From NCBI GenBank assembly GCA_945883495.1, contig CAMCXS010000008.1:62001-126000 (forward strand): DNA of 64,000 bases, in the 5' to 3' direction. The stretch's first letter is position 1, and the number at the start of each line of letters is the position of its first letter. The DNA is from Akkermansia muciniphila. GTDB lineage: Bacteria; Verrucomicrobiota; Verrucomicrobiia; Verrucomicrobiales; DEV007. Under the pieces are notes generated by a model. It was not told the origin of the DNA and did not search any database. It worked only from the letters and a program-made list of their open reading frames with translations. This document shows positions 18,001 to 30,813 of this stretch, in pieces. The position numbers and the translations under genes are program-made.

Positions 18001-21000
18001 TTATCCAGCGACAGCAAGGCACCGACGTTTACGGTGACCCCGGTCGTGTTCAGAAGTGATCCTTCCCCGGCCAAGAGAATGGTTCCGCCGTTGGTGTTGA
18101 GAGTTGTGGTGCCGCTGTAAGTTGCGGCGGACGTAATCGCCATCGTGCCGAAGCCCGATTTCGTCAAAGCCTGGGCGCCAAATGCCTCCCCAATACCGCC
18201 CGCAAATTCCGCGGTGCCGGCGGTGATGATGTTGAGCGTGGTCGCCGCCGCCAGGTTGACTGGACCGGAGAAGGTGAGTTGATTGCCCCCGCCGCCCACC
18301 AAGTTCCCGGCCACGAGGTTGATCGATCCCCCGAAATAAAAGGTGTTCGCCACCGTGCGTGCCCCGGCATCCGAGAGCAGGCTGCCTTGCGGGACATACA
18401 CGACACTGTTCCCAAACGCCTTGTCGTGGGCGATGGAAATACCACCTGCTTCCACGAAGCTGGCCCCGGTGTAGGTGCTGTCGCCAGCCAGCCGCAAGAT
18501 ACCAGAGCCCGTTTTGCGAATGCCTCCCGTGCCACTGATCTCCGCCGCAATGATAAAGTCAGCGGCGAGCGGAATACGATCCGCGATGTCGATCTGGCGC
18601 ACGATATTGCCCAGATTGAGTTTGCCGGTGATCATCGCCGGAGCTTCGGGAGTCCATAGGGCGGCTCCATTGCCGCCAGTGGCGACGATGTTACCGTTGA
18701 TCGTGAGAGTACCCGAACCCGTGGAAACCAAAGCCGAAGCCTGGAGGGTCAAGGCAGTTTGCGCATCGACATTCCCGATCGTTTCGTTGCGCCCGTTGAG
18801 ATCCATCCAACCGGTCACCGACACAGTCACTGGAGTGAGGTAGTCGGGCAGCTGATCGTCTTGGAGCCACCGGACCAAATCGGAGCGGGAGAATCCATTG
18901 GTCACCCCGCCGCCTGTGTCGCCGATGGTGAGCGCCCCGCGCATGGCCGTGACGCCGCCACTTCCCGTCCCCTTGTTGAGCAACAGCGTGCCCTCGCTAA
19001 TGAGGGTCGTGTTGGTGTAGGTGTTGGCGGTCGCGCCAGCGTATTCCAAGGTTCCGAAACCGGTCTTGGTCACCCCCATGGGTTGCAGACCGCTTCCGTC
19101 CACGATCGCGGAAGAAATCGTCAGGTCACTGCCTACGGCACCGTCATTGACCTGAAACGTGCGCGATGCAGCCGTGCCACTGGCGCCAAAGACTTGCAGG
19201 GCAAGGGTCCCGCCCGAGATCGAAGCTCCGGTTGGATGGCCGATCCCCTGCGTGAAGACGCTGATGTTCCCATTGGTCGTCAGCATGCCGCCGTTGGACA
19301 TCGTGACCGCTCCGGCCCCGGTGGCCCCCACTTCCAAGGCCAAGCTGGCGATCACCTCGCCATTGCCGCCCAAATCGAACACTCCATCTCGATTCACGCG
19401 GACGGAAATGTTGTCCACGATCTGGTCGCCACCACCCAAACGCAAGGTTGCTTGATTCGCGCCCGTTCCAGCTCCCACGAAGATCAACTCCCTCGCGGTG
19501 CCATCATTGGTAATCGCGTTGAGACCGGGCTCCTTATTCAGGAACAACGTTCCCGCCAAAACGCGGACCGAACTATTCGAGAAGGTATTGGCGACCGTCC
19601 CGCTCAATTCCAGCTGTCCAGCGCCGGTCTTGATCAGCTCCAGGTTGCCCGAAATCACCCCAGACAAGTTCAATGAGCTGCCCGCCGCGACATCGTAGTG
19701 CGTGGTTGCATTGGCAATCACGGGGAAGCCATTGAGCAAGCTCGTCAGGTTCGTGGCACTCCCCGCTTGGGTAATATTTCCCGCCCAGCTGTTATTGCCC
19801 GCCAAGTTCCGCAACGCCCCGCCCAGCGAAGCGCCTCCGGTTCCATCCAAGGTCAAGGCTTCCGGCCCCACGCTGATGGAGCCGAAGGTGGTTTCTTCCA
19901 GTTCCAACACCGCGTTGGGACGGACTTCGGTGCCGGCGGCTGGAGATCCCAGAGCAGTACTCCGCTGGATGTTGAGAGTTCCCTCGTTCACGTCGGTGAC
20001 ACCGGTGTGCTGGTTGTCACCAGTCAAGATCAGCTTGCCAGCACCGCCTTTATACAACCGTCCCGTGCTGCTGACGATGTTGGCATCGATTTTGGCCGTG
20101 CCGTTGACGGTCACCAGGTTGGCGTTTGCCGCTCCAAACGTCAGCGCCAAATCGGAGCCGAGCACGCTGCCGTCTTCCAAAAAGATCAGGCCCCCAGAAG
20201 TCACGGTCAGCAGGTAGGGACCGGACAAATCCGCGCCGTTCTCGATGATGATCGAATTGACCGTGCGATTCAGGGTCAACGCCTGCGAGGCGGAAATCCG
20301 CAAGTTACTCTGCGGCCCGGCCTGATTGATGTCCGTGACATACTCATCAGCCGGCAATGCGATTACACTAGCGCCAAACGGATTCGATTCCACGGTGGCC
20401 ATGTCCACCCGCCCGGTGGTGGCATCCACCACGATGGCATGACCGAGAACTCCGTTGCTCATGCTTCCGGGGAGGTTCACGAACTCCAGGCGGTTCGCGC
20501 CGGTGGCGCTGAGGGCTTGGCCAACGCCCACGGCACGGAACGGACGATCCGAGAACGACTCAAGCCGGTGCGCCGAGAGCACGGAACTGAAGGCTCCGCC
20601 GGAGGTGTTCTCCACGCGGATCTCGCTGGTGAGGTGCTGCCCGGGCGTGAGGACCCCGACGTATTCCGAGGAATTCGCGGCGGCATTTCCGACAAAGTGA
20701 AGGGTGCCGTTGTTTGTGAGCCCAACCAAGTCGTGGAGCCGGTTGGTCAAATTCACGGCGCCGTTATCGATCTTGAACACGGAGCCCACGCCAACCGTGA
20801 TCGCATTGGAATTCAGGAGCGTCCCGTTTCCGGCCAACGCGAGCGTGCCCCCATTGTTGTTCACCGTGGTGCTGCCGCTGTAGGTATTGGCACCGGAAAG
20901 CACCAGAGTCCCCAAACCATCCTTGGCGAAGTTCACGCTGCCGTAAATGCCTTCACCAATGGCACCTGAGAAGGTAACCGTCTGCGCCGCGTCCATCACT

Positions 21001-23951
21001 TGCACAGTACGGCTCGCCGACAGGGTGACCGGGCCGCTAAAGGTGATATCGTTGCCGCCGAACGTAGACAGCGTCCCATCCAGCCCCATGGTATTCGTGA
21101 TCGTCCGCGCGCCGCCGATGGCCCGGAGCGAGCCGGCCTGGTGAGAATAAAAACCAGATCCGAACGGGGAATTATTTGAATTGATCTCGATCACCCCTCC
21201 GTTGGCAATGAACGGGGAAGCCAAACCGGAGTTGTTTCCGCTCAGGCGAAGCGTTCCCGCGCCGTCCTTGCGCAACGCGACTCCGCTCACTCCGACGATG
21301 TTGGCGGAAATGTCCAGGTCGGTGACCACGTGAGCCAGTTGCGAGTCGCTTATGGAAAAGACTTTGCTGTTTCCGCCGCTCGACCAGGTAGAGTTCACCC
21401 CCTGCGCGGTCACATTCGTGGAGAGGTCGAGCGTCCCCGGCCCCTGAATCGTCGCCATCGGGCTCACCTGGCTGCTGCCGTTGGCGGCATTCAACGACAA
21501 GGTTGGCCCCGCCATGGCCAAGGTGCCGCCGTTCAGCAGCACGTCCGCGCTTTCCGTGCGGCCGAGCGTCAGGGTAATGTTCCCCACCATGTCGCTGAAC
21601 CCATTGAGGTTCAGGGTGCCACTGCTCGCCACGGTGACCGTCGTGAGACCGACCTCATAGAGATCGAAATGACGCATCTGGTCGTTGAAGAGAAAGATCA
21701 CCGTGGCGGAATCTCCCCGCTCCATGTCATCGCCGATCACCAGGTTCCCCGGGACGGCCGTTTTCGCAGTAGCACCGTCACGCTTATTCAGCTCCAGAGT
21801 CCCTTGAATCACCCGGACTTCGCCGCGGAAGGTGTTGTCCTCGGTTCCTGAGAGCTGCAAGGTACCGAGACCGGCTTTGGTCAGACGTCCGCCACTGGAA
21901 AGCCCGCTGGAGATGACCCCGCTGAGGTTCAGGCTGCTTCCATCGTTTACCCCAACGATGGTGTTGGCATTCGAGAGGTCAATCGGCCCCTCCCAAACGT
22001 TGTTCCCGGAAATGCTCCGCAGTGCCCCGAGTTGACTCGGATCGGTCCCCTCGGGGAAGCCAATCCCGCCCTCGCGCAGGGCCAACGCATTGCCGATGGT
22101 CAGACCACCCGTCAAATGGACGGACGCGCCCGCTTGAATCGCCACCAGCCCGGCGCTGAACGCGTCCTTATGGGAGGCCAGGATCACGCCCTGCCGGAGA
22201 TCGGTGATTCCTCCAAAGGTATTCGCCGTGGTCAGACTCACCGTCCCTGCTCCCAGCTTGGTCACGCTTCCCTGACCATCAATGGTGCCGGACACCGTCG
22301 TGTTGCCAGCTCCGTCAAAGGTCAATGCCGATGTTCCAAAGACCGTGGAAGTCCCGAGGAGTGCGCCGGTATGAATGGCTCCACTGAGATTCAACGTAGA
22401 GCCAGTATTCGCGTTCAGAATGGTCTGCGCATTGACCAACGTAATCTCCAACTCAACGGTATTGGACCCACTGACGTTGTTCGTGGTCAGACCGCCATAC
22501 AGCTCTATCGAATTCCCGGTCAGCGTGAAGCCACTGCCATTGATCTGGATCGTGTTGAAACGGGTGTTCGGAGCGAATCCACTGAAGTCAATGGTCCCAG
22601 CACCAGCCGACCCGAACACGAGGTCATCCATCGTGGAAGGCGCCACGCCGCCCGCCCAGTTCGCGCCGTTACTGGCATCGTCATCAAACGCACCCGTCCA
22701 AACGAAGGAAGCCGTCAGGTATTCCAAGCCGTCCGCATTCAGGCTCACCTCAGATCCTTCCGCTTGGCTCGCGTCTGGAAGACGACGCTGCCCGGCTTGG
22801 AGGAACGCGTACATGACATCGTTCTGGCCAGAGGTAAGATCGGCCAATCCAAGCACGTGCCCTTGCTCGTGCATCAACGCACTCAAGAGATCGTAGCGAG
22901 ACGCCGCCAGCGTTCCAGAAGAAGCGTTGACCCCATCGAGATCGGTCAGGTCATATTCCTCGTCCAGACCTGCGGTTGAATCGACAAACCAAGCCTTACC
23001 AGCCGCATCGGAGTCGACCACGATGACCATTCCGTCCGCATATCCAAGACGATTGCCCTCCAAATTCTCCACCCGGTAGGTGATCCGGCTCAGGGCTTCG
23101 ATTTGCTCTTGGGTCAATCCCGTACTGCTCCAACGAAGCGCCGCTTCTTCAGCCAAAGCCTGCACATCAGCCAAACTGAGGCTGGAGCTGCTCGTCACCG
23201 GAACGGCAGCGGGAGCTTCCTCCTCGGCAGAGAGATCGCCAACGGGAGCGGCCGAGCCGATCCAGGCCTGGAGCAATTCCAGACCGCCAGAATGACCCGC
23301 GCCTTGCAGCAGCAATGCCTGCTGGTGCATCAGAGCCGCGAGCAGATCTTGCCGATCGCTGGCGCCATCTTCGGTCACACCGCTGACCATCCATCCAGAG
23401 CCACCACCGTTGTCATCAATCCGGATGAGACTGCCCTCGCTCGCCGAAAGACGGGCGCCGCCCAAGTCGCCCACTTCATACGAAGCCTTGTAGAGTAGCT
23501 CGATTTGCTCTTCCGGAAGCCCCGTCTCCCGCCAGCGGGAGATCGACTCCATCGCCAAGTTCCGCAAGGCATCCTCCGACTGCTCACGAGAAAGGGAGGG
23601 AGCGCCCAAATCCAACTCCGCCGACTCGCCATCAGGGCCAGTGCCAAAATCGATCGTTCCCAACTGCACCGTGGGATCCGCCTCCAAAAGCTGGTCTGCC
23701 AGAGCCGCCGCCTCTTGGCTTCGCGCCACGTTCAAGTCCGTAACGGCAGGAGCGGCGTTAGCCACGTCGACGGCTTCTGCTTCAGCGGGAGACTCGACCT
23801 CCCTGACCGGAGCCTCCGCCGGCGAGGCGGAATACAGAATCCTCGGCTCCAGCTGTTCCCACTGAAGACCGGTTCTTTGCTCCTGGGTCTTCTTGGAACG
23901 GCTTTTGGACTGCTTGGGCGTCTTGGCCTGGTTGGGCTTCTTGGGCTTCAT
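1..23951 (-). CDS. giant LEPR-motif, autotransporter-associated beta-strand repeat surface protein (partial, C-terminus outside window)
   Basis: One phase read from the ATG at 23951 stays open to the left edge, giving at least 7,983 codons. Residues 1-33 are Lys-rich, and residues 34-42 read LEPRILYSA, the N-terminal motif of LEPR-XLL giant exported proteins. Two related domains follow (about 105-245 and 250-410). The second has HEQGHVLGLAD at 361-371 and a VMY turn at 379-381, the zinc-site pattern of matrixin-like metalloproteases; the first has HQQALLLQGAG at the equivalent place (209 on). From about residue 415 the protein is beta-strand repeats with the recurrent pattern K.GaGTL.LsG.NtYsG.T, interrupted by six NEVQR-type modules and a PA14-like domain near residues 5275-5437 (about 7640-8130). 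A cell-surface or secreted location follows from the family. No typical cleavable signal peptide and no Shine-Dalgarno sequence are seen; the leader is pyrimidine-rich on the coding strand. The substrate or adhesion target is unknown. Confidence 0.9.
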   Translation of the reverse strand, partial: MKPKKPNQAKTPKQSKSRSKKTQEQRTGLQWEQLEPRILYSASPAEAPVREVESPAEAEAVDVANAAPAVTDLNVARSQEAAALADQLLEADPTVQLGTIDFGTGPDGESAELDLGAPSLSREQSEDALRNLAMESISRWRETGLPEEQIELLYKASYEVGDLGGARLSASEGSLIRIDDNGGGSGWMVSGVTEDGASDRQDLLAALMHQQALLLQGAGHSGGLELLQAWIGSAAPVGDLSAEEEAPAAVPVTSSSSLSLADVQALAEEAALRWSSTGLTQEQIEALSRITYRVENLEGNRLGYADGMVIVVDSDAAGKAWFVDSTAGLDEEYDLTDLDGVNASSGTLAASRYDLLSALMHEQGHVLGLADLTSGQNDVMYAFLQAGQRRLPDASQAEGSEVSLNADGLEYLTASFVWTGAFDDDASNGANWAGGVAPSTMDDLVFGSAGAGTIDFSGFAPNTRFNTIQINGSGFTLTGNSIELYGGLTTNNVSGSNTVELEITLVNAQTILNANTGSTLNLSGAIHTGALLGTSTVFGTSALTFDGAGNTTVSGTIDGQGSVTKLGAGTVSLTTANTFGGITDLRQGVILASHKDAFSAGLVAIQAGASVHLTGGLTIGNALALREGGIGFPEGTDPSQLGALRSISGNNVWEGPIDLSNANTIVGVNDGSSLNLSGVISSGLSSGGRLTKAGLGTLQLSGTEDNTFRGEVRVIQGTLELNKRDGATAKTAVPGNLVIGDDMERGDSATVIFLFNDQMRHFDLYEVGLTTVTVASSGTLNLNGFSDMVGNITLTLGRTESADVLLNGGTLAMAGPTLSLNAANGSSQVSPMATIQGPGTLDLSTNVTAQGVNSTWSSGGNSKVFSISDSQLAHVVTDLDISANIVGVSGVALRKDGAGTLRLSGNNSGLASPFIANGGVIEINSNNSPFGSGFYSHQAGSLRAIGGARTITNTMGLDGTLSTFGGNDITFSGPVTLSASRTVQVMDAAQTVTFSGAIGEGIYGSVNFAKDGLGTLVLSGANTYSGSTTVNNNGGTLALAGNGTLLNSNAITVGVGSVFKIDNGAVNLTNRLHDLVGLTNNGTLHFVGNAAANSSEYVGVLTPGQHLTSEIRVENTSGGAFSSVLSAHRLESFSDRPFRAVGVGQALSATGANRLEFVNLPGSMSNGVLGHAIVVDATTGRVDMATVESNPFGASVIALPADEYVTDINQAGPQSNLRISASQALTLNRTVNSIIIENGADLSGPYLLTVTSGGLIFLEDGSVLGSDLALTFGAANANLVTVNGTAKIDANIVSSTGRLYKGGAGKLILTGDNQHTGVTDVNEGTLNIQRSTALGSPAAGTEVRPNAVLELEETTFGSISVGPEALTLDGTGGASLGGALRNLAGNNSWAGNITQAGSATNLTSLLNGFPVIANATTHYDVAAGSSLNLSGVISGNLELIKTGAGQLELSGTVANTFSNSSVRVLAGTLFLNKEPGLNAITNDGTARELIFVGAGTGANQATLRLGGGDQIVDNISVRVNRDGVFDLGGNGEVIASLALEVGATGAGAVTMSNGGMLTTNGNISVFTQGIGHPTGASISGGTLALQVFGASGTAASRTFQVNDGAVGSDLTISSAIVDGSGLQPMGVTKTGFGTLEYAGATANTYTNTTLISEGTLLLNKGTGSGGVTAMRGALTIGDTGGGVTNGFSRSDLVRWLQDDQLPDYLTPVTVSVTGWMDLNGRNETIGNVDAQTALTLQASALVSTGSGTLTINGNIVATGGNGAALWTPEAPAMITGKLNLGNIVRQIDIADRIPLAADFIIAAEISGTGGIRKTGSGILRLAGDSTYTGASFVEAGGISIAHDKAFGNSVVYVPQGSLLSDAGARTVANTFYFGGSINLVAGNLVGGGGNQLTFSGPVNLAAATTLNIITAGTAEFAGGIGEAFGAQALTKSGFGTMAITSAATYSGTTTLNTNGGTILLAGEGSLLNTTGVTVNVGALLSLDNTEMNRGNRLNDLANVTMSGGRLRFAGKAGEASSEVINNLVLSDNTSSVVESIVSAAPGSSAEWRINSIDRGTSLAGEFVRFVGRGVDIGATTNNRFAFTVAPSRNDGIIDFMVIDNETTGLQFATHRNPGIDAASPFFGMLEVYNATTAGLVGLGSFATTLSGATGTANVRLTSSETIPAAITANAVLLANGSIVLSGAGSLTVDSGLVASVGAGNELNVAAVTLGGSEANLFVGEAGTLTVTSAIAGTVGINEIQRITINGVPTDGTTTFTVTFGGQTTAPVTWSATGGVTGAALQAALEALSSIGSGNVIVAELGGQNYEISFVGALAAVNQAAVTAAIGTAGPGTPAPTPTITELRAGAVGNLGKQGRGSLIISGSATNTFGGVTRINEGTYRAANATAFGSSAGGVNVTYGATLELSGGHTFAAETLTLNGNGESNVGAVPLRNLSGTTTWQGNVALNNNRTAIDVAAGELIINGIVSGQGFNKFGVGTLELGGTAANTQGAGSVVWDGLLELNKTGFNAMAHDLTIGDYVGGAGTASVVYLQANQVADNRTVTVNAEGALNLAGFSDTIAALNVAVGPQASSTVATGAGTLTVAGNMSVNALLGGAPASPATISGNLGWGGAAERTITVSDSAVVEDLVISAVISDAAAGWVKVGGGRMVLSGTNTYTGATRVGAGELVVRNGSALGTSAGAVTVSSAADGNLATNGTLILDGDFTITKSSLTLRTANNGDGNASLRNGSGFQGTGGLRVLAGRTATWVGNVTFASDSTANNSPRVIINVEQGGDLTINGNIDQTGVSTNRLGIGLDKVGAGALEFAGSGANSYGTPNGTGASAVTSVQNGVLRLNKSAGGAAVSARLEVGGNRGSATAAEVRWMASNQFADQLNGSNALIGMETDGRINLNGFSETIVGPTANALYFRLGTTNSGKLDVNGGTLTLGDGVTNGTGNIGVLALGTVLPFTPAATISDTAGTGRVSLAGAGAILNGDWSVVDTIMATEFEVSANVSNAAGGRIRKTGPTNANNGLLALTADNSSTYVGGTIDLNLGIIAVPNGNALGSSTTVLNVSGTSSLSALPGGTATTLDRNITLNANLTLRGDVDLTLSGVITNAAGDRTLTANLNRANTVTINNTINLSNDNTGRILTLSNSTFDTTTVVSAAIQNGGTGNGSLTKGGIGALQLTNSNSFSGTTTVAAGILQVSNANALGTGGVNAVQTVTATAAFTLSFNGLTTASIPLSSSNSVVQSALEAILGVGNVSVGGAGTGPYTVTFQGEYARAAVAAMTATGATVANTTTGSGQTQINAGGTLLIDAGLTLNEVITLNGSAQGSQVNRGAILVESGTVTLESAIIGFTDNTDAAIGVAAGAELIINAPITRQNNNGIIKVGKGILELGGSSSNSFNRDLVIREGVVELNKTPGANATGGGVTVGDGSGVGAANVPRLLWLAADQLPVATLTVNPAGVANLNGFSDAIGGVTLQRIATGSGAIQIGSGTLTLGGEVTVNNLGHTSTTSPAATISGNGTLALGGPRIFTVNDSIVPGSGDDLIISAVISGAGNNLTKAGFGNLVLTANNTYSGTTTVNAGAFVDGVTRLGGALILRGDGDIAQSGTITVGVGASLILDNSAGLPVDAEGRIGNTATITLAGGELVHVGSADFAFAETVGNITIDVPAATVGGGSSVIRSVWNGQNVELAAGNLARTAGATVQFVGQGAGVAADLGGTSNRVRFSGTVAGVNSNNTLTWATLDQATNADLDFVTHDGTNGIGAAGYVTSLALATATDNVKLTLDEVLAAPKTVGNLMIAGSGVDITGAALTVGGGLVINTGGENTIGNALSFGTAEILALIETASQLTLSGAVSGSGILRKERNGALVLGGNNTTLSGVVTVADGLLRLTNAGALGATTSGTVVHAMAALELNGALSLGAEALTLNGAGLENNGFGALRTSGGSSTWAGAVTVGSTNTVLNTMGGSSLNLSGVVAFGNNLQVSKIGAGTLEFSGSGANTITTTAGTLTVTEGSLLLSKTGTAVALPVNLVLGNLATGATATYTSAGTDQIGGVTVTVNRLSTLDLAGRNDTFNALVMTGGEVKTGAGILTLNGNLTYNSGGEAVINGFLNLNNGTRTFTVNDGHGLNDLTINAAISNGKLVKAGGGLLLLNNSANTFTADVNEVQRIVTASTTPTSTFSITFNGSTTGTITVGADNAATAANIQAALQALPGIGSGGVTVTVAATNTFNLNFAGHLSGADLPNQITTTVGSGAGTYTPSTLTAGLAGVRLNGGALSLGSSTALGAARLHIDGNAQLLATGGDRALANNVTINPNITVTFGGRRDFGGTDDLSLTGGVTLIGSASAQLVALDVTDNRTLVTMSGVVSGGGNLLTVVKRGIGTLVWSGNNTFDVRNYTAAADFDDSDGIRIEGGILRIANSSALGSSAETAAVMIRGDLGAVLEVDGTTLNGSVNVTGKVLDIMAVDVNSTVVMGTRGFLNRSSGEMVHTGTLRNLGGTNSIVSPTGEIRLRNVANNNQTTSFTFGSDAGRLDLNGGLTGYQNNATPTSVVGRAVYKTGAGTLRTSGGTANNITGGYYILNGALELNKTAGVNAIDGNVIIGDGVGGANADRLVVLASNQIADTRTITINPSGQLLLGTGVSELATLATMVAGNSSDGSANIDLAALSSLRLNGEVTVTHRSGGDGTSVGASITGGGTLELVPTAGTRTFTVNDGVAESDLTISASIANGGGTANLTKQGPGRLTLSGNNVYSGATSVTAGVVRAASNAALGTGAGTNEVQTIATIPTGTFTLSFGGIATGNITGSTADGAAVQAALEAVVGVGNVSVTGAVGGPFTVTFQGALANANVEQLTSTTTTIVFGTTTQGAGGTTVSSGASLELAGDVTVSNETVFLNGTGFVNGAISPLVTGITGTGALRSVSGENTWAGSVVLAGATSGANLSMGVETGKLTVNGTIFQQVANHNLIKTGIGTLEFGGSTSNAYGGTTFVNEGTLVLNKQGGAIAVRGSLTVGDNQGSSGSDVVRYAPTAGTNQISDVAVLINSTGLLDLNGVNDTVNSTLTLTAGPTASGILRTGGAAYALNNTIGVVVLSGTNASSPAAQIQGTLNLGAGERTFDVRRSGGMQYELDVQASVTSGGITKSSNGALLLSSPGNNYTGVTAVVAGKLIVGANGALGTTDRGTLVSEGASLIFPGGVNYTAGEIITVVGRGQNGEGAIQSFGNNSFAGNIFGYEGLRDVSVLLKSHSGSFTVGGTLTLRDVQAEVDGAGNLTIAGGIKGSTVATGAINGFEQRFHDLTVGSVSNNIADALASPFQIRNVLSGPLSYPSDTVFNTAAETDINGLASTFSAVWITSFTPSESGTWQFQTNGAIDDLASIWIDLNQNGSFELSELIGVRGNVGSFGPFATPGLEAGKTYRMVIAMSDTGSGGAFPDFQFRAPSAGSFVSVNPSAGAQAGLWSIAVEQEALLKNGTGVLTIGGSSTYTGGTVVNQGELSLTNGSGSATGTGAVTMEAGTILSGSGRSTGSFTLDSAAVIRPGVSGVGTLSVGNLILDGEFNGQINGTLAGQFDRLLVNGTVDLSGASLNLTGSVTSPYGPVTLIDNDGTLDAVSGTFTGYAEGATVTVNGVAFTISYVGGDGNDVVLTPVSPVEVPAGLGSGSSTYTPVSAPATANTNTLTLTWDGGGDGESWSDAANWVGDVAPVEGNDLLFTAGASTVNDFAAGTRFNTIIMNGAGITLAGNAVRLSGGLTSNHISGVNTVSLEVTLVNAMTFMNANAGAVLNLTGAIHTGNLVGATNILGTSAITFDGAGTTNLSGTIDGSGGLNKLGSGSLALSSANTYEGITDIRQGVVVVSHSNALGNATTGNVQVQQGASLHLTNNVTLSNHLALREGGIGFGEGADGSTLGSLRSLSGTNRWVGNIDMANTNVVVGVNSGSTLIFEGVVAQGLSRVERLIKAGEGTLRLAGTQDNQIFGEVRVLTGALELGMAGGAAAFQGSLFVGTDVESSGSATVKLLANDQFRAFNTFGSGLNTVTVRSTGELNLNSFSQTAGNVVLNTGVTDSGDIVLGGGVLTLGGASITVTGIQGSSEVTPAATISGGTLNLGTVFSGAGAGLAKTISVGDTQLPNAATDLHISANIVGAGAVSLNHAGTGTLRLSGDNSGLASQYVMSGGGILEIAHGNALGNGQLSLQNSGNVLKAIGGAKTITNTVVLDGNVATIGDNLTFNGNVMLSGDRTFLVMDAAQAVTINGIIEEGIFGNRSFTKSGRGTLILTAANTYSGTTTVADDGGRLELRDNGTLLNSHTVIVRDSAVLMLDNSGSANIANRINDRTLVQLEGGNLHFVAGTGGTTETLAAVVLSNDLSSGLVLDSSNGNAHLLVQRGRFEGNADLAVTTLGNDLSSSGANRLTFAETLAGEAVNDGILPRITVRGTTGQFGYGTYSSVSEGAAITALSATDYVTDINQAGPQSNVRLSAGTHVLTTARTINSLILEDGAILQGDGFVLTVEAGGIVLGDGSSIDVATLSLGARSYLTVADGDEAVISSTVIGAASALSKTGTGKLVLSGDNLFSGYAMINEGILNIQRSTGLGSSNIGISGGTPTFIRAGATLELEATSWGDIQIGPENLAVEGNGFNDLGAIRNVSGNNSFAGNIAQAGVNTNLLNALGGFPAPTSATVFYTVETGSSLNLSGVISGNAEMIKQGGGTLELSGIGSNTHDATTRILEGTLLLNKEAGLNAVLNFVQVGTDRAGAPAATLRLGSSDQMRDDRGVRVHSSGLFDLNGNSEVLGANFELIVGPQGAGDVNIGTGGTLTTNVNTSVWTIGRNNPAGSTITGGTLALQVYGTSTTASARTFLVNDGAVGSDLTVTAAIVDGTGLQSVGVTKTGLGTLEFGGATANTYTGTTTVNEGTLLLNKGTGTGGVLAMQGPLTIGDANVNSGFAASDIVRWLQPHQLPNASAPVTVTVTGWMDLNGQDEAIGNAVAQTALTLQAAARVTTGVGTLTLNGNIAASPNNGAAIWTPYTPAIVEGKLFLGDVVRTVDIGDRSELPVELIITADISGTGGLRKTGTGFVLLSGDSTYSGDSFLEAGGFVIGRDTAFGTSRVFLPAVTNSSSHLLAHGGSRSVGNTFFFGGGTINLLGGNSVGNGGNDLTFSGPVNLATGTTTLNTSIAGIVEFSGGIGETNGATNLTKGGFGTMVFSGNTVYSGATTINSNGGAIIVRGDGRLLNTSSITVNVGGEFVVDNNTGANLTNRVHDAASIVLSGGTMTFRSKAGEESFEAVGVVTLSDNTSSAIHSMVAPGSFAEWRIDSLDRGTSLAGEFVRFVGRGTDIGTTTGNQFTFTVAPSRSNGIVNFVVIDNEIGGLNFATHYVPAGTDAPSQFFGYLDVYNATTASLAGSGTFATALSGATATSNVRLTSSEAVPGAITANALLLADGSIVVSGAGSLTLGSGLVASKGSGNAISVATLNLSGADGHVFVGAASDLDISSAVTGMTGVNEVQRLSVGGLPTSGSTTFNLTFNGQTTSTLTWSSDPVAMASAIQTALEALSTVGTGNVVVTAATLAGEGGLPALFSIAFQGALGGFNQPLVGVTSLNAAGASGLGVVDILPGNIGTFGKHGTGTLVMSGSGVNTFGAVTRVNEGIFRAAKNSAFGAEATSLTNEIQRVAIGGNPTDASTTFTLSFGGFTTAAITYSATPSATAADILAKLSALPGIGAGNVSVSAVSNLIFDITFQNTMGQFDHAQMTTALVNAGGATTPAMSTIRGGSSAGVNVTVGAAVELTNSVTITNETLALSGNGEGSFGVVPLRSLSGTNTWVGHVILNSNRTGIQVAAGSELILNGVVSNQSFNKFGDGTLELGGTAANTFGQTTVIWQGTVELNKTAGVNAVALGDNTELFIGNFYGVDNSVRLKLLARDQITGGMRVRVISTGVFDLNGFNESITGRVGSGNNHDALGLEVGPNGSGDVTLGGGTLRIDNTVSGNGRIAVRVLNGGVPAAPATISG
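757..1035 (-). repeat. NEVQR-type module, copy 6 (extra copy in megarepeat unit 2)
   Basis: The module is about 92 residues long and begins with NEIQRVAIGG. It follows the pattern TTFTLSFGG, then LSALPGIGAGNVSV, then FDITFQ. Unit 1 has no counterpart here, which explains the roughly 350-base change of register between the two megarepeats. Confidence 0.75.
1242..1523 (-). repeat. NEVQR-type module, copy 5
   Basis: Begins NEVQRLSVGGLPTSGSTTF and continues LEALSTVGTGNVVV and FSIAFQGALGGFNQP. It is the positional counterpart of the module at 16970-17246 in megarepeat unit 1. Confidence 0.75.
9432..9667 (-). repeat. NEVQR-type module, copy 4
   Basis: Begins NEVQTIATIPTGTFTLSFGG and continues LEAVVGVGNVSVTG and FTVTFQGALANANVEQL. 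It is a shorter version of the module than copies 5 and 6. Confidence 0.75.
11245..11502 (-). repeat. NEVQR-type module, copy 3
   Basis: Begins NEVQRIV and continues TFSITFNGSTTGTITVG, LQALPGIGSGGVTV and FNLNFAGHLSGADLP. It lies between ordinary beta-strand repeats. Confidence 0.75.
14133..14365 (-). repeat. NEVQR-type module, copy 2 (opening residue changed to NAVQT)
   Basis: Begins NAVQTVTATAAFTLSFNG and continues LEAILGVGNVSVGG and YTVTFQGEYARAAV. The Glu of the usual NEVQ opening is replaced by Ala. Confidence 0.7.
16970..17246 (-). repeat. NEVQR-type module, copy 1
   Basis: Begins NEIQRITINGVPTDGTTTF and continues LEALSSIGSGNVIV and YEISFVGALAAVNQ. It is the unit 1 counterpart of the module at 1242-1523. 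Confidence 0.75.
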
Positions 23952-24691: not shown

Positions 24692-27550
24692 ATGTCCATC
24701 ACCCGCCGTTTTCTGGGCTGGGATCGTCCCGTCCTCGAACTGGTGGCGGAAGATCTTCTTGCCGAAGCCACTCCGCCCATTCTTGACCTGAGCCATCTGC
24801 TGGTCGTCGTCCCCACCCGGAATGCCGGACGGCGCCTTCGCGAAATGTTGGCTCAACTCAGCGCCGAGGGCGGCCGCGCCATCTGTCCGCCTCAGGTGGT
24901 GCCTCCTGAGTTTCTCCTCAGCCTCATCGACCAACCGGAAGCGGGAAGCTTGGCGAGCGCGCATGAAACCCTTCTGGCCTGGGCCCCCGTTTTGCGCTCC
25001 GCTGATCTGGATGAGTTTCCCACGCTCTTTCCGGTGCCTCCCGCTGCCCAGGATTTCCGCTGGGCACTCAGTACCGCGAAAAGCTTGAACGAACTCCGGA
25101 GCACTCTCGGCGAAGCAGGGCTCTCCATCGCCGACGTTTTTGCCAAACTCTCCGGAAGCTTGGAAGAGGAGGAGCGCTGGGAAGAATTGGCCCGCTTGGA
25201 ACAAGATTTCGGCCGCGCCTTGGCGGACCACGGCAAGAAGGACCTCCTCGCGGTCCGCCGCGAGAACCGGCAATCCCCCAAACTCCCACAGGGAATCACC
25301 GGCATTCGCCTCGCGGGCTGCCCGGATCCCCTTCCCCTTGCCGTGGAAGTGCTGGAGTCCTTGAGCCACCTCGTGCCGGTGGAGGTTTGGATTCATGCTC
25401 CCGGTGCACTGCGCGATGACTTCGATGCGTGGGGCCGGCCGATTCCGGAGGTCTGGCTCAGGCGCCAGGTCGAGTTCCCCGGCGGCGAGCTCCCGGTCCG
25501 TGTCCAACCCAGCCCAGATGGTCAAGCCGCCCTCACCGCCGAGGCCGTGCTGCGTTGCGACTCGCCTTCCGCCACCATCACCATCGGCGTCCTCGACGAC
25601 GAGGTCACCGGTCCCTTGCAACGGCTTCTGCAGCAGGGCGGCCGCGCTACGTTCAATCCGGGCGGTTCCTCCATGCGCTCCGAAGGCGTGCTGCATCTTC
25701 TCCGGACCCTCCGCGACCTGCTGCTGGAAGAACGCTACGAGACGTTCGTAGAACTGCTCCGCTGCCCGGATTTCGATGCCTATCTCGGCAAAACTCTGCT
25801 CTTTTGGAACAGCCTAAGCGCCATCGAATGCCTGGATCGACTCCATCGCCGTCATCTTTTCGCGGATCTTCGCTCGGCCCGTTGGTATTTGACCAAAGCC
25901 GATGCCCAAGGCGCCGTGGAACCGCTCGGCGCCCTGGATGAAGTGACCCGCTTGTTGACACGCTTGCGCCAAGTTCCACGCTCCACGGAGATCCCCGATG
26001 TGCTTCAAGCCATCCTCGGCAGTCGCCTACCCACCCACAACTCCCGCGTCGATCGCATTTACCAAACGGTTTCTGAAGTGTTTCAAACGCTTTTGGACGC
26101 ACTCGATGGCCCCGTTGGCTCGGATTTGGACCTTTCCGAAGTGGAGATTTTCGATCTGTTCCTCTCCCTCCTGGAGCAGGAGACGCTGTATGAAGACCGG
26201 CCCCCAAATTCGGTAGAATTGCTCGGATGGCTGGAGCTTCATTGGGATGAGGCGCCTCACCTGATCGTCACCGGGTTCAACGAAGGCTACGCCCCCGAGT
26301 CGATCACCGGCGATGTCTATCTTCCCGAACGGTTGCGCAAACGCTTGGCGGAACAGGTCTACTTCCCGACGAACGAGACCCGTCTCGCCCGGGACACCTA
26401 CCTTTTCGAAGCGATCCTCCAGTCCCGCCGGCATCACGGCCGGGTCGATCTCTGTCTCGGCAAACACCGCCGCAATGGCGATCCGCTGCGCCCTTCCCGC
26501 CTCCTCTTTCTTTGCCCGGATGAGGAGCTGCCCAACCGAGTCAATCTCCTCTTCCACGAGACGCCACCGCCTCAGGGCGATTTGCCGTGGACCGCTGGTT
26601 TCCGCCTCCAGCCTTTCCCCGGCTCGCCCCCAGCCTACGAGCCCACCAGCCTCGGAGTCACCGCGTTCAAGACCTACCTCAGCTCTCCGTTTCATTTTTA
26701 TCTGCGCCATGTCGAGGGCATGGAACCGATCGATGCCGCCCTGAGCGAGATGGATTCCCTAACGTTCGGGAACTTCTGTCACGAGGTGCTGCGACGCTTT
26801 GGCAAGGATGATGGCGTGCGCCATTCCGCCGACGTTTCGGTGATCCGGGACTTCCTGCTCGAAGCCGTGGACCAGCTCTCGATGCAGTGGTTTGGCCCCA
26901 ACCCGACGCTCCCCGTCCGAATCCAAGTCCAAGCCGCCCGCGCCCGCCTCATCCAAGCCGCCGACATCCAGGCCCAAACCCGGGCCGAAGGTTGGATGAT
27001 CCTCGAAACAGAGCTGAGCCTGAGCGATCCCGGCTTCACCATTTCCGGCGTCACCGTGAAAGGCCGCATTGACCGCATCGACCGCCACGAGAGCTCCGGT
27101 GCCATCCGCGTGCTCGACTACAAAACCGGTGACCGCGGGGAGATGCCGAATTCCACGCACGTCGGCAAAGTGGGCAAGAAAACCGGGGCGACGTGGCTAC
27201 CCGAGTACGCCTGCTTCGCTCTCGGCAACGCCACCCTCCGTTGGAAGGACCTGCAACTTCCCCTCTACCGTCTCGGCTTGGCGTCGACCTACGGCCCGGA
27301 GATCGAGTGCGGATACTTCAACCTTCCCCGAGCCGTGACCGAGACCGGCATCCACGTCTGGCCGGGCCTGAGCCCCGTACACGACGCGGCGGCCTTGGCT
27401 TGCGCGGAAGGCATCATCCACGATCTCCGCGCCGGACGCTTCTGGCCCGCGCCGCAGGCCACGCAGAACGATTCCTTCGTGCGGGTCCATCTCGGTCTCC
27501 CTGAAAAGACCATCGCGTTTCCCAACCTCCTTCCCTCTTCCGCCCCATGA
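24692..27550 (+). CDS. addB: AddB-like PD-(D/E)XK nuclease subunit (double-strand break repair)
   Basis: 952 residues. The C-terminal third carries a RecB/AddB-type nuclease domain: FGNFCHEVLRRFG near the domain start, then GRIDRID with Asp794 and VLDYKTGD with Asp809 and Lys811 as metal-binding/catalytic residues. The N-terminal part resembles the inactivated helicase-like arm of AddB, and no Walker A motif was found. The stop overlaps the next start by 4 bases (ATGA), so the gene is translationally coupled to the AddA-type helicase. Known role of the family: with AddA it resects double-strand ends to start homologous recombination. Unlike Bacillus AddB, the C-terminus lacks the clustered cysteines that bind a 4Fe-4S cluster. 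The assignment rests on motifs and the partner gene; the N-terminal part is weakly diagnostic. Confidence 0.8.
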   Translation: MSITRRFLGWDRPVLELVAEDLLAEATPPILDLSHLLVVVPTRNAGRRLREMLAQLSAEGGRAICPPQVVPPEFLLSLIDQPEAGSLASAHETLLAWAPVLRSADLDEFPTLFPVPPAAQDFRWALSTAKSLNELRSTLGEAGLSIADVFAKLSGSLEEEERWEELARLEQDFGRALADHGKKDLLAVRRENRQSPKLPQGITGIRLAGCPDPLPLAVEVLESLSHLVPVEVWIHAPGALRDDFDAWGRPIPEVWLRRQVEFPGGELPVRVQPSPDGQAALTAEAVLRCDSPSATITIGVLDDEVTGPLQRLLQQGGRATFNPGGSSMRSEGVLHLLRTLRDLLLEERYETFVELLRCPDFDAYLGKTLLFWNSLSAIECLDRLHRRHLFADLRSARWYLTKADAQGAVEPLGALDEVTRLLTRLRQVPRSTEIPDVLQAILGSRLPTHNSRVDRIYQTVSEVFQTLLDALDGPVGSDLDLSEVEIFDLFLSLLEQETLYEDRPPNSVELLGWLELHWDEAPHLIVTGFNEGYAPESITGDVYLPERLRKRLAEQVYFPTNETRLARDTYLFEAILQSRRHHGRVDLCLGKHRRNGDPLRPSRLLFLCPDEELPNRVNLLFHETPPPQGDLPWTAGFRLQPFPGSPPAYEPTSLGVTAFKTYLSSPFHFYLRHVEGMEPIDAALSEMDSLTFGNFCHEVLRRFGKDDGVRHSADVSVIRDFLLEAVDQLSMQWFGPNPTLPVRIQVQAARARLIQAADIQAQTRAEGWMILETELSLSDPGFTISGVTVKGRIDRIDRHESSGAIRVLDYKTGDRGEMPNSTHVGKVGKKTGATWLPEYACFALGNATLRWKDLQLPLYRLGLASTYGPEIECGYFNLPRAVTETGIHVWPGLSPVHDAAALACAEGIIHDLRAGRFWPAPQATQNDSFVRVHLGLPEKTIAFPNLLPSSAP

Positions 27551-30500
27551 AAGCGCTGCAGAATGAAATGATTCTCGCCTCGGCCGGATCCGGAAAGACC
27601 TACCGGTTGACCAATCGATTTGTCCACCTGCTGGCCCTCGGTGTGCCCCCAGAGCGGATCATCGCCTTGACGTTCACGCGCAAAGCCGCCGCCGAGTTCC
27701 TCGATGAGATCCTCAAGAAGCTGGCCAAGGCCGCCTCGGACCCGCGGATAGCCCAAGATCTGAAGAGCCAACTCGATCTCGACGACTTCGATTCCCGCCG
27801 CGCCTTGGAATTGCTGCGCTTGGTCATCGACCGCCTGCACCAGCTCACACTGGGCACCCTCGATTCCTTCTTTCACCGCATTCTCGCCTGCTTTCCCGCG
27901 GAGTTCGGCCTGGGAACCGGGTTCGAGGTGATGAACCCGCACGAGGAGAGCGAAGCCCGCGCCCGCGTCTTCGCGCAGATCTTCAACAACCGGCGCCTCC
28001 ACACCCACTTTACCGAGGCCTTCAAGAAGGCGACGTTCGGAAACGAGGAGAAGAGTTTGCAACGCAAGCTGGACGACTTCGTCAGCAACCACCATCGCAC
28101 CTACCTCCGTCAGCCAGCCTCCCAACGTTGGGGCGACGAATCCGTGATTTGGCCAAACGGAGCCCGTTGGCTGCAAGCCGCTTCGGCACCGGTGGAGGCC
28201 TACACGGCACTTCGGGACGCCGCGGGGACGTTGGAGCTCGATAAGACCGCCCGCGGCATGTGGGACAAGCTCATCGATCTCTTCGCAAGCGTCGAACTCG
28301 GCAAGAAACTTCCCAGTGCCCCGGGCGCCGCCTTCGAGCGCGTGCTCGAAGCGTATCCGAGCGCCGTCAAAGGCGGGCCCGTCCCCCTCAAACTCGGCCG
28401 CAAGGAGTACGAGCTCTCTCCATCGCTCTGCCGCGCCTTGGCCAGCTTGGTGGATCACTACCTCTTCTGCGAGATCAAGCCTCACCTGGAACGGACTCGC
28501 GGCATCTACGAAATCTTGGAAGCCTTCGAACGGGATTACCACGACGAAATCCGCCGCTCCGGAAAACTCGGTTTCGAGGACATCCAGATGCTCCTCAACG
28601 GCTCTCTCTTACCGCCCCAAAGCCGCCAACACCTCAGCATCGATGGCGGCGAAGGCCGGTTGCACGTCGATTACCGGCTCGACGGTCAGTTCGATCACTG
28701 GCTCCTCGATGAATTTCAGGACACCAGCAATGGGCAATGGAAAGTCATCGCGAACCTCATCGATGAAGTCCTCCAAGACACGGAGGGACGGCGCAGTCTG
28801 TTCTACGTTGGGGATGTCAAACAGGCCATCTTCGGCTGGCGCGGAGGCGATGCCGCGCTCTTCAACGACATTCGGTTCCACTACAACTCCCTTCAGCCGG
28901 ACAGCATCCAGAGCGAGCACATGGAGGACAGCCGCCGCTCCGGTCCGGCTTTGATGGAAGCGGTCAACCGGATATTCGGCGACTTCGACCGGCTGCGCTC
29001 TCTCTTTCCGGATCACCCGGAATTCGTCGAGCGCTGGGAAACGAACTGGGCCCCGCACACCACGCACCACCAGAACCGCGCCGACTACGTGGAACTGCTC
29101 ACTCTGGCGGACGACCCGACAGCGGAGGAAGACGCCAGCGAGCGCCGCCTCGCCGTGGTTGCTGGCTTGGTCGAGGAGATCGCGCCGCACCGCAAACAGC
29201 TCTCCTGCGCCATCCTCGTCCGGACCAATGACACCGCCATCGCCCTGGCCAATGCCATTCGCTCCCGGACGGACGTGCCCGTCACGGTGGACAGCGATAC
29301 CCTCATTGGCACCGATCACCCGATTGCCTCCTCCTTTCTCTCCCTGATCCAATTCACGGCGCATCCCGGAGATTCCGCCGCCTGGAAGCACCTGCTGATG
29401 ACCCCGGCCTTCTGCCACCAGAATTGGGAAGATTACCGCGATCTCCGGCGTTCCCTCGGACGCGAACTGCTGACCACCATTCACGACGCCGGATTCGCCC
29501 AAGCCTTTGAGCTGTGGCTCACCTATCTCCAGAATGGGGGATTTGTTCCCGACGCCTTCGCCCTGCGCCGCATGGAACAACTGCGCCAAGCCGCCCACGA
29601 CTTCGACCAAAAGGGAAATCGCTCGATCTCCGATTTCATCCACTACGCCGAAGCCGCCGCGACCCGGGAAACGCCCGCCCACGGCGTCGTCCAAATTATG
29701 ACGATCCACAAGTCCAAGGGCCTCGGGTTCGACGTCGTCATCCTCACGGATCTCGACCGCCACAACAACCCGGCCATCACCACCACGCAGCATCTCTCCC
29801 TGGTGGCTCACGAACGTGGCGCCGGTTTGGGACGGGAGATCGATTGGGTCCTCTCCATGCCCAACCGGCAAGTCTGCGAAATGGACGCCCGCCTCCTCGA
29901 AGCCCGGCGCCGTTGCGAGATCGATCGCGCCTACGAGGAGCTGTGCGTCCTCTACGTCGCGCTGACCCGCGCCAAGTTTGCCACCCACATCGTCTGCTCC
30001 GAGCCCAAAGGGGAACCGAACGGCAGCGCCCGGGATCTCCTCATCGCGGCGCTGGCCCAAGCCCGTGATGCCGCTCCCCAACGCACACTGGCCGAGGAAA
30101 CCGTTTCCGTTCTCTATGCTGGCGGCGATCCAAACTGGCACGTCGCCCGCCCACAACCAACCCCGGCGGAAGAACCGCCACCGTTCATTCCGCCGCTCCA
30201 CCGATCCCGCCGGTTCCCGCCCCTGCAACGCGCCATGCCCTCCAGCGCGGCTGACGAGGGCAGCCATGGCAAAATCCGAGCCAACTTTCTTTTCTCCCGC
30301 TCCTCCAGCGACGCCGCCGCATACGGTACGAAGTTGCACGCCGTCTTTGAACAAATTGATTGGATCGATAGCCTCACTGCCAACTCCCTCGAAGCAGCCG
30401 TGGCCGCGATGATCGACCCCACCGATTCCGTCGCCGTCCTGGTGCGGGATGAAGTCTTGGCCTCCCTACGCGAGCCAACCATCGCCGCCCTGTTCCATCG

Positions 30501-30813
30501 AGACCAATTCGGAACGGACCCCATCCTCTGGCGGGAAAAGCGCTTTGAAATCATCCTCAACGGAGCCTGGGTCTCCGGAACATTCGACCGCGTCGTGCTG
30601 ACCCGCGAGCGCGCCTGGATCTTCGACTTTAAAACCAACCGGGTCGCCACCCCAAGGCAAATCGCCGAAGCTCGCGATGCCTACCGGCCGCAACTCTCGG
30701 TCTACCGCGAAGCCCTTTCCCGCCTCAGCGGCATCCCAGCTCAAGCCATCGAGACACACCTCATCTTCACCAAACCCGCCGTTGTTGCAGTCGTGGCGCA
30801 GACTGATGATTGA
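27547..30813 (+). CDS. addA: AddA-like UvrD-family helicase/nuclease
   Basis: 1,088 residues. SF1A helicase motifs appear in order: Walker A ASAGSGKT at residues 11-18, ALTFTRKAAAEF, DEFQDT at 388-393, VGDVKQAIFGWRGGD, MTIHKSKGLGFDVVI and LYVALTRAK. The C-terminal PD-(D/E)XK nuclease domain has the GTKLHAVFE entry helix and IFDFKTNR with Asp1027 and Lys1029. The start codon lies inside the stop region of the addB-like gene. Together they form the two-subunit helicase-nuclease that processes DNA ends for RecA loading (established for the family). The AddA assignment, rather than RecB, rests on the adjacent two-gene layout without recC or recD. Confidence 0.88.
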   Translation: MKALQNEMILASAGSGKTYRLTNRFVHLLALGVPPERIIALTFTRKAAAEFLDEILKKLAKAASDPRIAQDLKSQLDLDDFDSRRALELLRLVIDRLHQLTLGTLDSFFHRILACFPAEFGLGTGFEVMNPHEESEARARVFAQIFNNRRLHTHFTEAFKKATFGNEEKSLQRKLDDFVSNHHRTYLRQPASQRWGDESVIWPNGARWLQAASAPVEAYTALRDAAGTLELDKTARGMWDKLIDLFASVELGKKLPSAPGAAFERVLEAYPSAVKGGPVPLKLGRKEYELSPSLCRALASLVDHYLFCEIKPHLERTRGIYEILEAFERDYHDEIRRSGKLGFEDIQMLLNGSLLPPQSRQHLSIDGGEGRLHVDYRLDGQFDHWLLDEFQDTSNGQWKVIANLIDEVLQDTEGRRSLFYVGDVKQAIFGWRGGDAALFNDIRFHYNSLQPDSIQSEHMEDSRRSGPALMEAVNRIFGDFDRLRSLFPDHPEFVERWETNWAPHTTHHQNRADYVELLTLADDPTAEEDASERRLAVVAGLVEEIAPHRKQLSCAILVRTNDTAIALANAIRSRTDVPVTVDSDTLIGTDHPIASSFLSLIQFTAHPGDSAAWKHLLMTPAFCHQNWEDYRDLRRSLGRELLTTIHDAGFAQAFELWLTYLQNGGFVPDAFALRRMEQLRQAAHDFDQKGNRSISDFIHYAEAAATRETPAHGVVQIMTIHKSKGLGFDVVILTDLDRHNNPAITTTQHLSLVAHERGAGLGREIDWVLSMPNRQVCEMDARLLEARRRCEIDRAYEELCVLYVALTRAKFATHIVCSEPKGEPNGSARDLLIAALAQARDAAPQRTLAEETVSVLYAGGDPNWHVARPQPTPAEEPPPFIPPLHRSRRFPPLQRAMPSSAADEGSHGKIRANFLFSRSSSDAAAYGTKLHAVFEQIDWIDSLTANSLEAAVAAMIDPTDSVAVLVRDEVLASLREPTIAALFHRDQFGTDPILWREKRFEIILNGAWVSGTFDRVVLTRERAWIFDFKTNRVATPRQIAEARDAYRPQLSVYREALSRLSGIPAQAIETHLIFTKPAVVAVVAQTDD

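Follow-up and report, generated by a model that had tools for sequence, protein, structure and literature searches.

Why does the head of a giant surface-type protein carry two metalloprotease-like domains, one of which has lost its zinc site? The question is raised by an ORF in the window, the whole 64,000-nucleotide stretch of DNA analyzed here, which comes from an uncultured Verrucomicrobia-type bacterium. The ORF starts at position 23951 and stops at C8:30190 in the contig; it lies on the minus strand, as do all features described below. Its 18,587 amino acids comprise a LEPR-XLL head, autotransporter-type repeats, and a Calx-beta-like tail; the N-terminal part (positions 3 to 23951) accounts for 7,983 codons inside the window.

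Two homologous domains in the protein head

The LEPR-XLL motif (positions 23808 to 23858; residues 32 to 48, inside LQWEQLEPRILYSAS) scored 24.4 bits against NCBIfam NF012209, whose cut-off is 17 bits, and is the sole match to that family in the genome. Two homologous zincin domains follow, D1 (residues 116 to ~232) and then D2 (residues 256 to ~415), and the body of autotransporter-type beta strand repeats starts beyond them (positions 20000 to 22649; TIGR02601, E 5.6e-24). The D1 string SRWRETGLPEEQIELLYKASY and the D2 string LRWSSTGLTQEQIEALSRITY were both found in the ORF. Local alignment of D1 with D2 scored 157, compared with 34 +/- 6 for shuffled sequence (2,000 shuffles; z about 20), which bears out the domain duplication proposed in a sequence-only reading of the locus. 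A related-domain profile of which D1 is itself a row recovered D1 in the genome at an E value of 9e-30, and an HMM built without D1 still matched it at 54 to 58 bits (E 8.8e-19, small set). Whether the pair originated by internal tandem duplication is uncertain because, in a similar twin elsewhere (G062:C256), D1 and the head fall in one paralogue lineage and D2 in a different one; for that twin, a common origin is compatible with the AU test (p 0.10).

D2 is intact and D1 is a shortened copy

D2 (positions 22707 to 23186) retains the zinc site HEQGHVLGLAD (positions 22839 to 22871; residues 361 to 371), with H361, H365, and D371 as predicted ligands and E362 as the predicted base, numbered as in the earlier reading. 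The Met-turn methionine M380 (positions 22812 to 22814) lies nine residues past D371 in the VMY turn at residues 379 to 381. The AlphaFold model of D2 (pLDDT 92.7) resembles snapalysin and the matrixins, its best VIA matches being snapalysin 4hx3 (Z 9.8) and karilysin 2xs4 and MMP-11 1hv5 (both Z 9.7), as expected of the zincin fold that had been anticipated. Pfam M10 was matched by 45 of 46 aligned relatives, and HExxH is kept in the main domain of all 59 LEPR heads surveyed. D2 looks fully active.

D1 (positions 23256 to 23606; residues 116 to 232) has lost its catalytic site, as the same reading had recognized, but the damage goes beyond a replacement of HEQGH by HQQAL. In the MAFFT alignment, H-Q-Q-[ALLLQGA]-G-H-S-G-G-L of D1 pairs with H-E-Q-G-H-V-L-G-L of D2, so that the catalytic Glu is replaced by Gln (H209-Q-Q) and a seven-residue insertion divides HExxH in the active-site helix (H209-QQALLLQGAG-H220; positions 23292 to 23327). 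In the D1 model this helix continues, and the i+4 residue is Leu213 under either alignment. D1 also lacks a ~25-residue segment bearing the conserved D-E-x-F motif (the acidic DEEF loop), the third ligand, and the Met-turn, with nothing recognizable past the active-site helix. D1 was modeled as a zincin core, most of it at pLDDT 87 to 96, as expected given that the supplied alignment was of intact relatives. D1 is thus a shortened copy with a zincin core left rather than an intact inactive twin.

Relic or retained pseudoprotease

The conserved head consists of the LEPR-XLL motif, a variable acidic linker, and one snapalysin/matrixin-like zinc protease domain, with D1 placed between motif and D2 in this species; a D1 of this kind is known from one genome. 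D2 is best read as the working protease of this widespread head module, probably active either on the cell surface or in the course of export; the processing of the protein itself or of the surface layer, as suggested earlier, would be a hypothetical task for it. We lean toward the view that D1 is a redundant copy decaying as a relic, and erosion is the most likely explanation of its state. Because D2 would do the work, D1 would be weakly constrained, free to lose its catalytic Glu, the integrity of its HExxH helix, its acidic loop, and its C-terminal lobe. Its reading frame would survive only because any stop codon or frameshift there would cost the protein the 18,000 residues that follow.

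A live minority alternative is that D1 is a retained pseudoprotease with an inhibitory or prodomain-like regulatory role; carboxypeptidase D is a known precedent for active and inactive peptidase domains in one chain. Much of the fold core of D1 persists (W, Q, L, D, W, DLL). Synonymous divergence from the congeners is close to saturation (JC 1.1 to 1.6 at four-fold sites), so if D1 predates the genus split, the survival of this much core points to constraint. In every twin, moreover, it is the upstream copy that is broken, a regularity not required by random decay, but three of three or four of four is not significant. Against retention, and against a conserved role as the recognition, prodomain-like or inhibitory partner suggested earlier, neither congener has D1: in both, the same head is joined to D2 by a short linker. 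D1 copies also evolve very fast: their end branches measure 2.2, 1.9, and 3.6 changes per site versus a median of 0.35, and they keep 54, 73, and 43% of non-catalytic conserved positions, versus a mean of 92% in intact domains.

The pair does recur in other LEPR-XLL giants, where a survey had been proposed, but adjacent twins are rare: three clear cases (the window, G043:C3, and G062:C256) and one or two more eroded. The upstream lesion differs every time, HQQ plus seven residues in the window and FEGQGQAIGIID and LEEMNDPIGLQE in the other clear twins, which also favors erosion over a retained role. At G062:C188 the fourth upstream copy has been reduced to a fragment that can be recognized in comparison with its own lineage alone (z about 12); the signal for a fifth, at G061, is even lower (p 0.002 to 0.008).

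Architecture of the giant protein

The giant open reading frame opens at window position 23951 on the minus strand and extends beyond the window (window 3-23951). In the genome, its frame ends at contig position 30190 (G000:C8:30190-85951), giving a total of 18,587 residues. Residues 32-48 match the LEPR-XLL model NF012209 with 24.4 bits against a cut-off of 17, which places the protein among the LEPR-XLL proteins by an N-terminal motif above the curated cut-off, and this is the single LEPR-XLL match in the genome. The giant protein shares with that group the N-terminal LEPR motif on a very large repeat protein; NF012209 spans the short motif only, and the zincin head and the twin lie outside it. 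The body consists of autotransporter-type beta-strand repeats (TIGR02601), and the far end, by reading of the sequence, looks like Calx-beta repeats. The divergent neighbours on the plus strand (window 24692-30813), a PD-(D/E)XK nuclease and a UvrD helicase with a nuclease domain, are AddB/AddA-like and have no obvious connection to the giant gene.

D2 is a predicted metzincin between two families

The head contains two zincin-type copies, D1 (residues 116 to about 232) and D2 (residues 256 to about 415). D2 carries H361-E362-Q-G-H365-xxGxx-D371 together with M380, and its AlphaFold model is of high predicted quality (pLDDT 92.7, pTM 0.90). The HExxH, the Met-turn and the metzincin fold of the model (Z up to 9.8) place D2 in the metzincin clan. 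The closest structural match by VIA was snapalysin (MEROPS M7; PDB 4hx3, 1kuh; Z 9.8, rmsd 2.4, 106 residues aligned), with the matrixins (M10) karilysin (2xs4) and MMP-11 (1hv5) tied at Z 9.7; Foldseek alone returned no match at E ≤ 0.001 for either the D1 or the D2 model.

Snapalysin itself has Asp as its third ligand. D2 resembles it in HExxHxxGxxD and in a Met about ten residues past the Asp, but its profile scores fall short, at 12.6 bits for Pfam M7 (threshold 25) and 12.5 for NCBIfam snapalysin (threshold 300); snapalysin is also a small secreted enzyme, whereas D2 heads a giant repeat protein. The motif and Met distance have been described previously (PMC3890501). Matrixins share the metzincin fold and Met-turn with D2, but their third ligand is His (HExxHxxGxxH) and not Asp, and D2 scores 22.9-23.1 bits with Pfam M10, just below the 24-bit cut-off. 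M10 is nevertheless matched by 45 of 46 aligned relatives of D2, and profile comparison with solved structures retrieved MMP-11 (E 1.8e-6) and karilysin (E 1e-5). Because of the sub-cut-off Pfam score, the M10 matches of its relatives, the model matches and the Asp and Met pattern, D2 is predicted to be a metzincin-type domain intermediate between M7 and M10 and claimed by neither curated family. Planctomycetota, Bradyrhizobium, Burkholderiales and others also encode related domains, which are found on rhizobial and cyanobacterial plasmids as well.

D1 is a shortened and damaged homologue of D2

The sequence-only reading had described twin metalloprotease-like domains, one of them with a destroyed zinc site. 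The pair is real, as D1 and D2 align with a score of 157 against 34 ± 6 for shuffles, and an HMM built from 23 intact domains, with D1 left out, still recovers D1. What that reading missed is that D1 is no clean inactive replica, having been shortened and damaged at several points. Its site reads H209-Q-Q, then a seven-residue insertion, then G-H220; the D-E-x-F acidic loop, third ligand and Met-turn are absent, and the C-terminal lobe is gone. With Glu changed to Gln, HExxH split and neither third ligand nor Met-turn, D1 is a pseudopeptidase in the sense of a peptidase homologue without essential catalytic residues, but not in the sense of an inactive copy conserved between related species, being absent from both available congeners. 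The D1 model gave weaker zincin matches by VIA, with selecase first (Z 10.5, then 8.6) and the MMPs at about 6.

Broken twins are rare among LEPR heads

A domain-profile search was run on genomes from the family (74), the order (288) and the class (384), and 59 LEPR heads were counted, among which that of G062:C256 was possibly counted twice, from two collections. HExxH of the main domain is kept in all 59, the third ligand is Asp in 56, and a Met follows it after 9-11 residues in most. In about 55 of the 59 heads the domain stands alone, with no partner of this kind. Adjacent twins were found in three heads (the window, G043:C3 and G062:C256), and in each the upstream copy has lost its zinc site by different changes. 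A second contig of the G062 genome, C188, holds a fourth, badly eroded upstream copy, and there is weak indication of perhaps a fifth, also eroded, in G061. Order- and class-wide profile searches outside the family yielded no additional adjacent twin. A single-sequence D1+D2 scan of the genome contigs gave no matches, where an alignment-based scan succeeded.

Origin and fate of D1

An assembly chimera is an unlikely source of D1, which is in frame, inside a 126-kb contig and similar in G+C to its flanks (0.63 vs 0.58-0.62). The two congeners have a short linker in its place, with 62-64% identity to the window's protein in the head and 68-69% in D2, and a gain in this species is as possible as a loss in the congeners. 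Four-fold sites are close to saturation in comparisons between congeners, so that they do not date D1. One explanation, to which we give even chances, is that twin heads arose by recombination between paralogous giant genes, with one head's domain placed upstream of another's, and not by internal tandem duplication. The head and D1 of G062:C256 match the paralogue heads L083, L154 and L155 (z 24-27), and its D1 falls inside their clade (100/100) with D2 elsewhere; G062:C188 behaves likewise with heads L024 and L029 (z about 12), and such genomes hold up to 14 heads. G062 combines an upstream copy and head of one paralogue lineage with a D2 of another, which suggests that giant genes have recombined. 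The window is less accommodating, since its genome has only the one LEPR protein, with a head like those of the congeners, which leaves no evident donor. In the free tree the D1 copies form no single clade, although one clade of all D1 is not rejected (AU test, p 0.26); their terminal branches are long, at 2.2, 1.9 and 3.6 changes per site where the median is 0.35. With branches this long, AU tests are also compatible with a tandem origin, in which each D1 groups with its own D2 (window D1 with the D2 of its genus, p 0.42/0.40; G062 pair, p 0.10; G043 group, p 0.08). Recombination would fit either decay or retention of D1.

We lean towards a reading in which D2 would be the working protease domain of the head module and D1 a decaying redundant copy whose frame is maintained by the huge reading frame downstream. 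Of the non-catalytic positions that are conserved, D1 copies retain 54, 73 and 43%, compared with 92% on average in intact copies. It is doubtful, though conceivable, that D1 has instead been kept as a pseudoprotease. In that role it would be a zincin that folds but does not catalyse, and it would serve as a docking module, chaperone or inhibitory prodomain by binding to D2, to a substrate or to the LEPR segment. Three separate giants have upstream copies that lost zinc ligands but retain a good part of the fold signature, and G043:C3 is the clearest of them (kept: 27/37 non-catalytic and 1/4 catalytic positions); the broken copy is always N-terminal, the place of metzincin prodomains, and functional metallopeptidase pseudoenzymes are known (PMC11266112). 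Yet catalytic positions were not lost significantly more than other conserved ones (Fisher p 0.11), D1 lacks the C-terminal lobe and acidic loop, no orthologue was found in the congeners, and most heads do without a partner. The broader proposal that inactive partners which restrain or position the active copy have evolved repeatedly among giant LEPR-XLL proteins from an extra N-terminal protease copy, as enzyme-derived prodomains, seems improbable. We consider it very unlikely that D2 itself is no protease and that its conserved site belongs, for example, to a domain with a structural or metal-binding role: no solved structure or demonstrated activity was found for any member of the domain group and its Pfam and NCBIfam scores fall short, but the catalytic Glu is invariant in 59/59 heads and 46/46 aligned relatives, and the Met-turn and metzincin fold are also present.

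Comparison with known systems and significance

There is precedent for a single chain that combines active and inactive copies of a peptidase domain: carboxypeptidase D has three M14 domains in tandem, of which the third is inactive (PMC11266112). That enzyme has another fold and carries its inactive domain at the C-terminal end; D1, by contrast, is N-terminal and the congeners lack it. As far as our searches reach, two things are new: a metzincin head is almost universal on these LEPR-XLL proteins, and broken twins recur in a lineage-specific manner. The predicted metzincin with an invariant catalytic site in all 59 surveyed heads of this family suggests that proteolysis is probably central to how the giant proteins are exported, matured or used. 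These proteins, barely mentioned by name in the literature searched, gain a testable handle from the survey, and the few broken twins amount to natural experiments on the fate of a redundant protease domain locked in a giant reading frame.

Other variation in the domain group

Four genomes (G020, G014, G062 and G063) have 7 to 14 head-domain matches each, on separate giant proteins, and G064 has frames of 16,801 and 18,544 aa. In L068 (G062:C188), residues 680-812 form a second intact domain copy, HEQGHILGLSH, with His as third ligand; it lies about 350 residues beyond the first copy, between repeats that we take to resemble phage tail-collar modules. Two single-domain relatives from the same order, L163 (G259) and L169 (G225), read LQEQGH, in which Gln replaces the first His of HExxH, and the remaining domain is well preserved in both.
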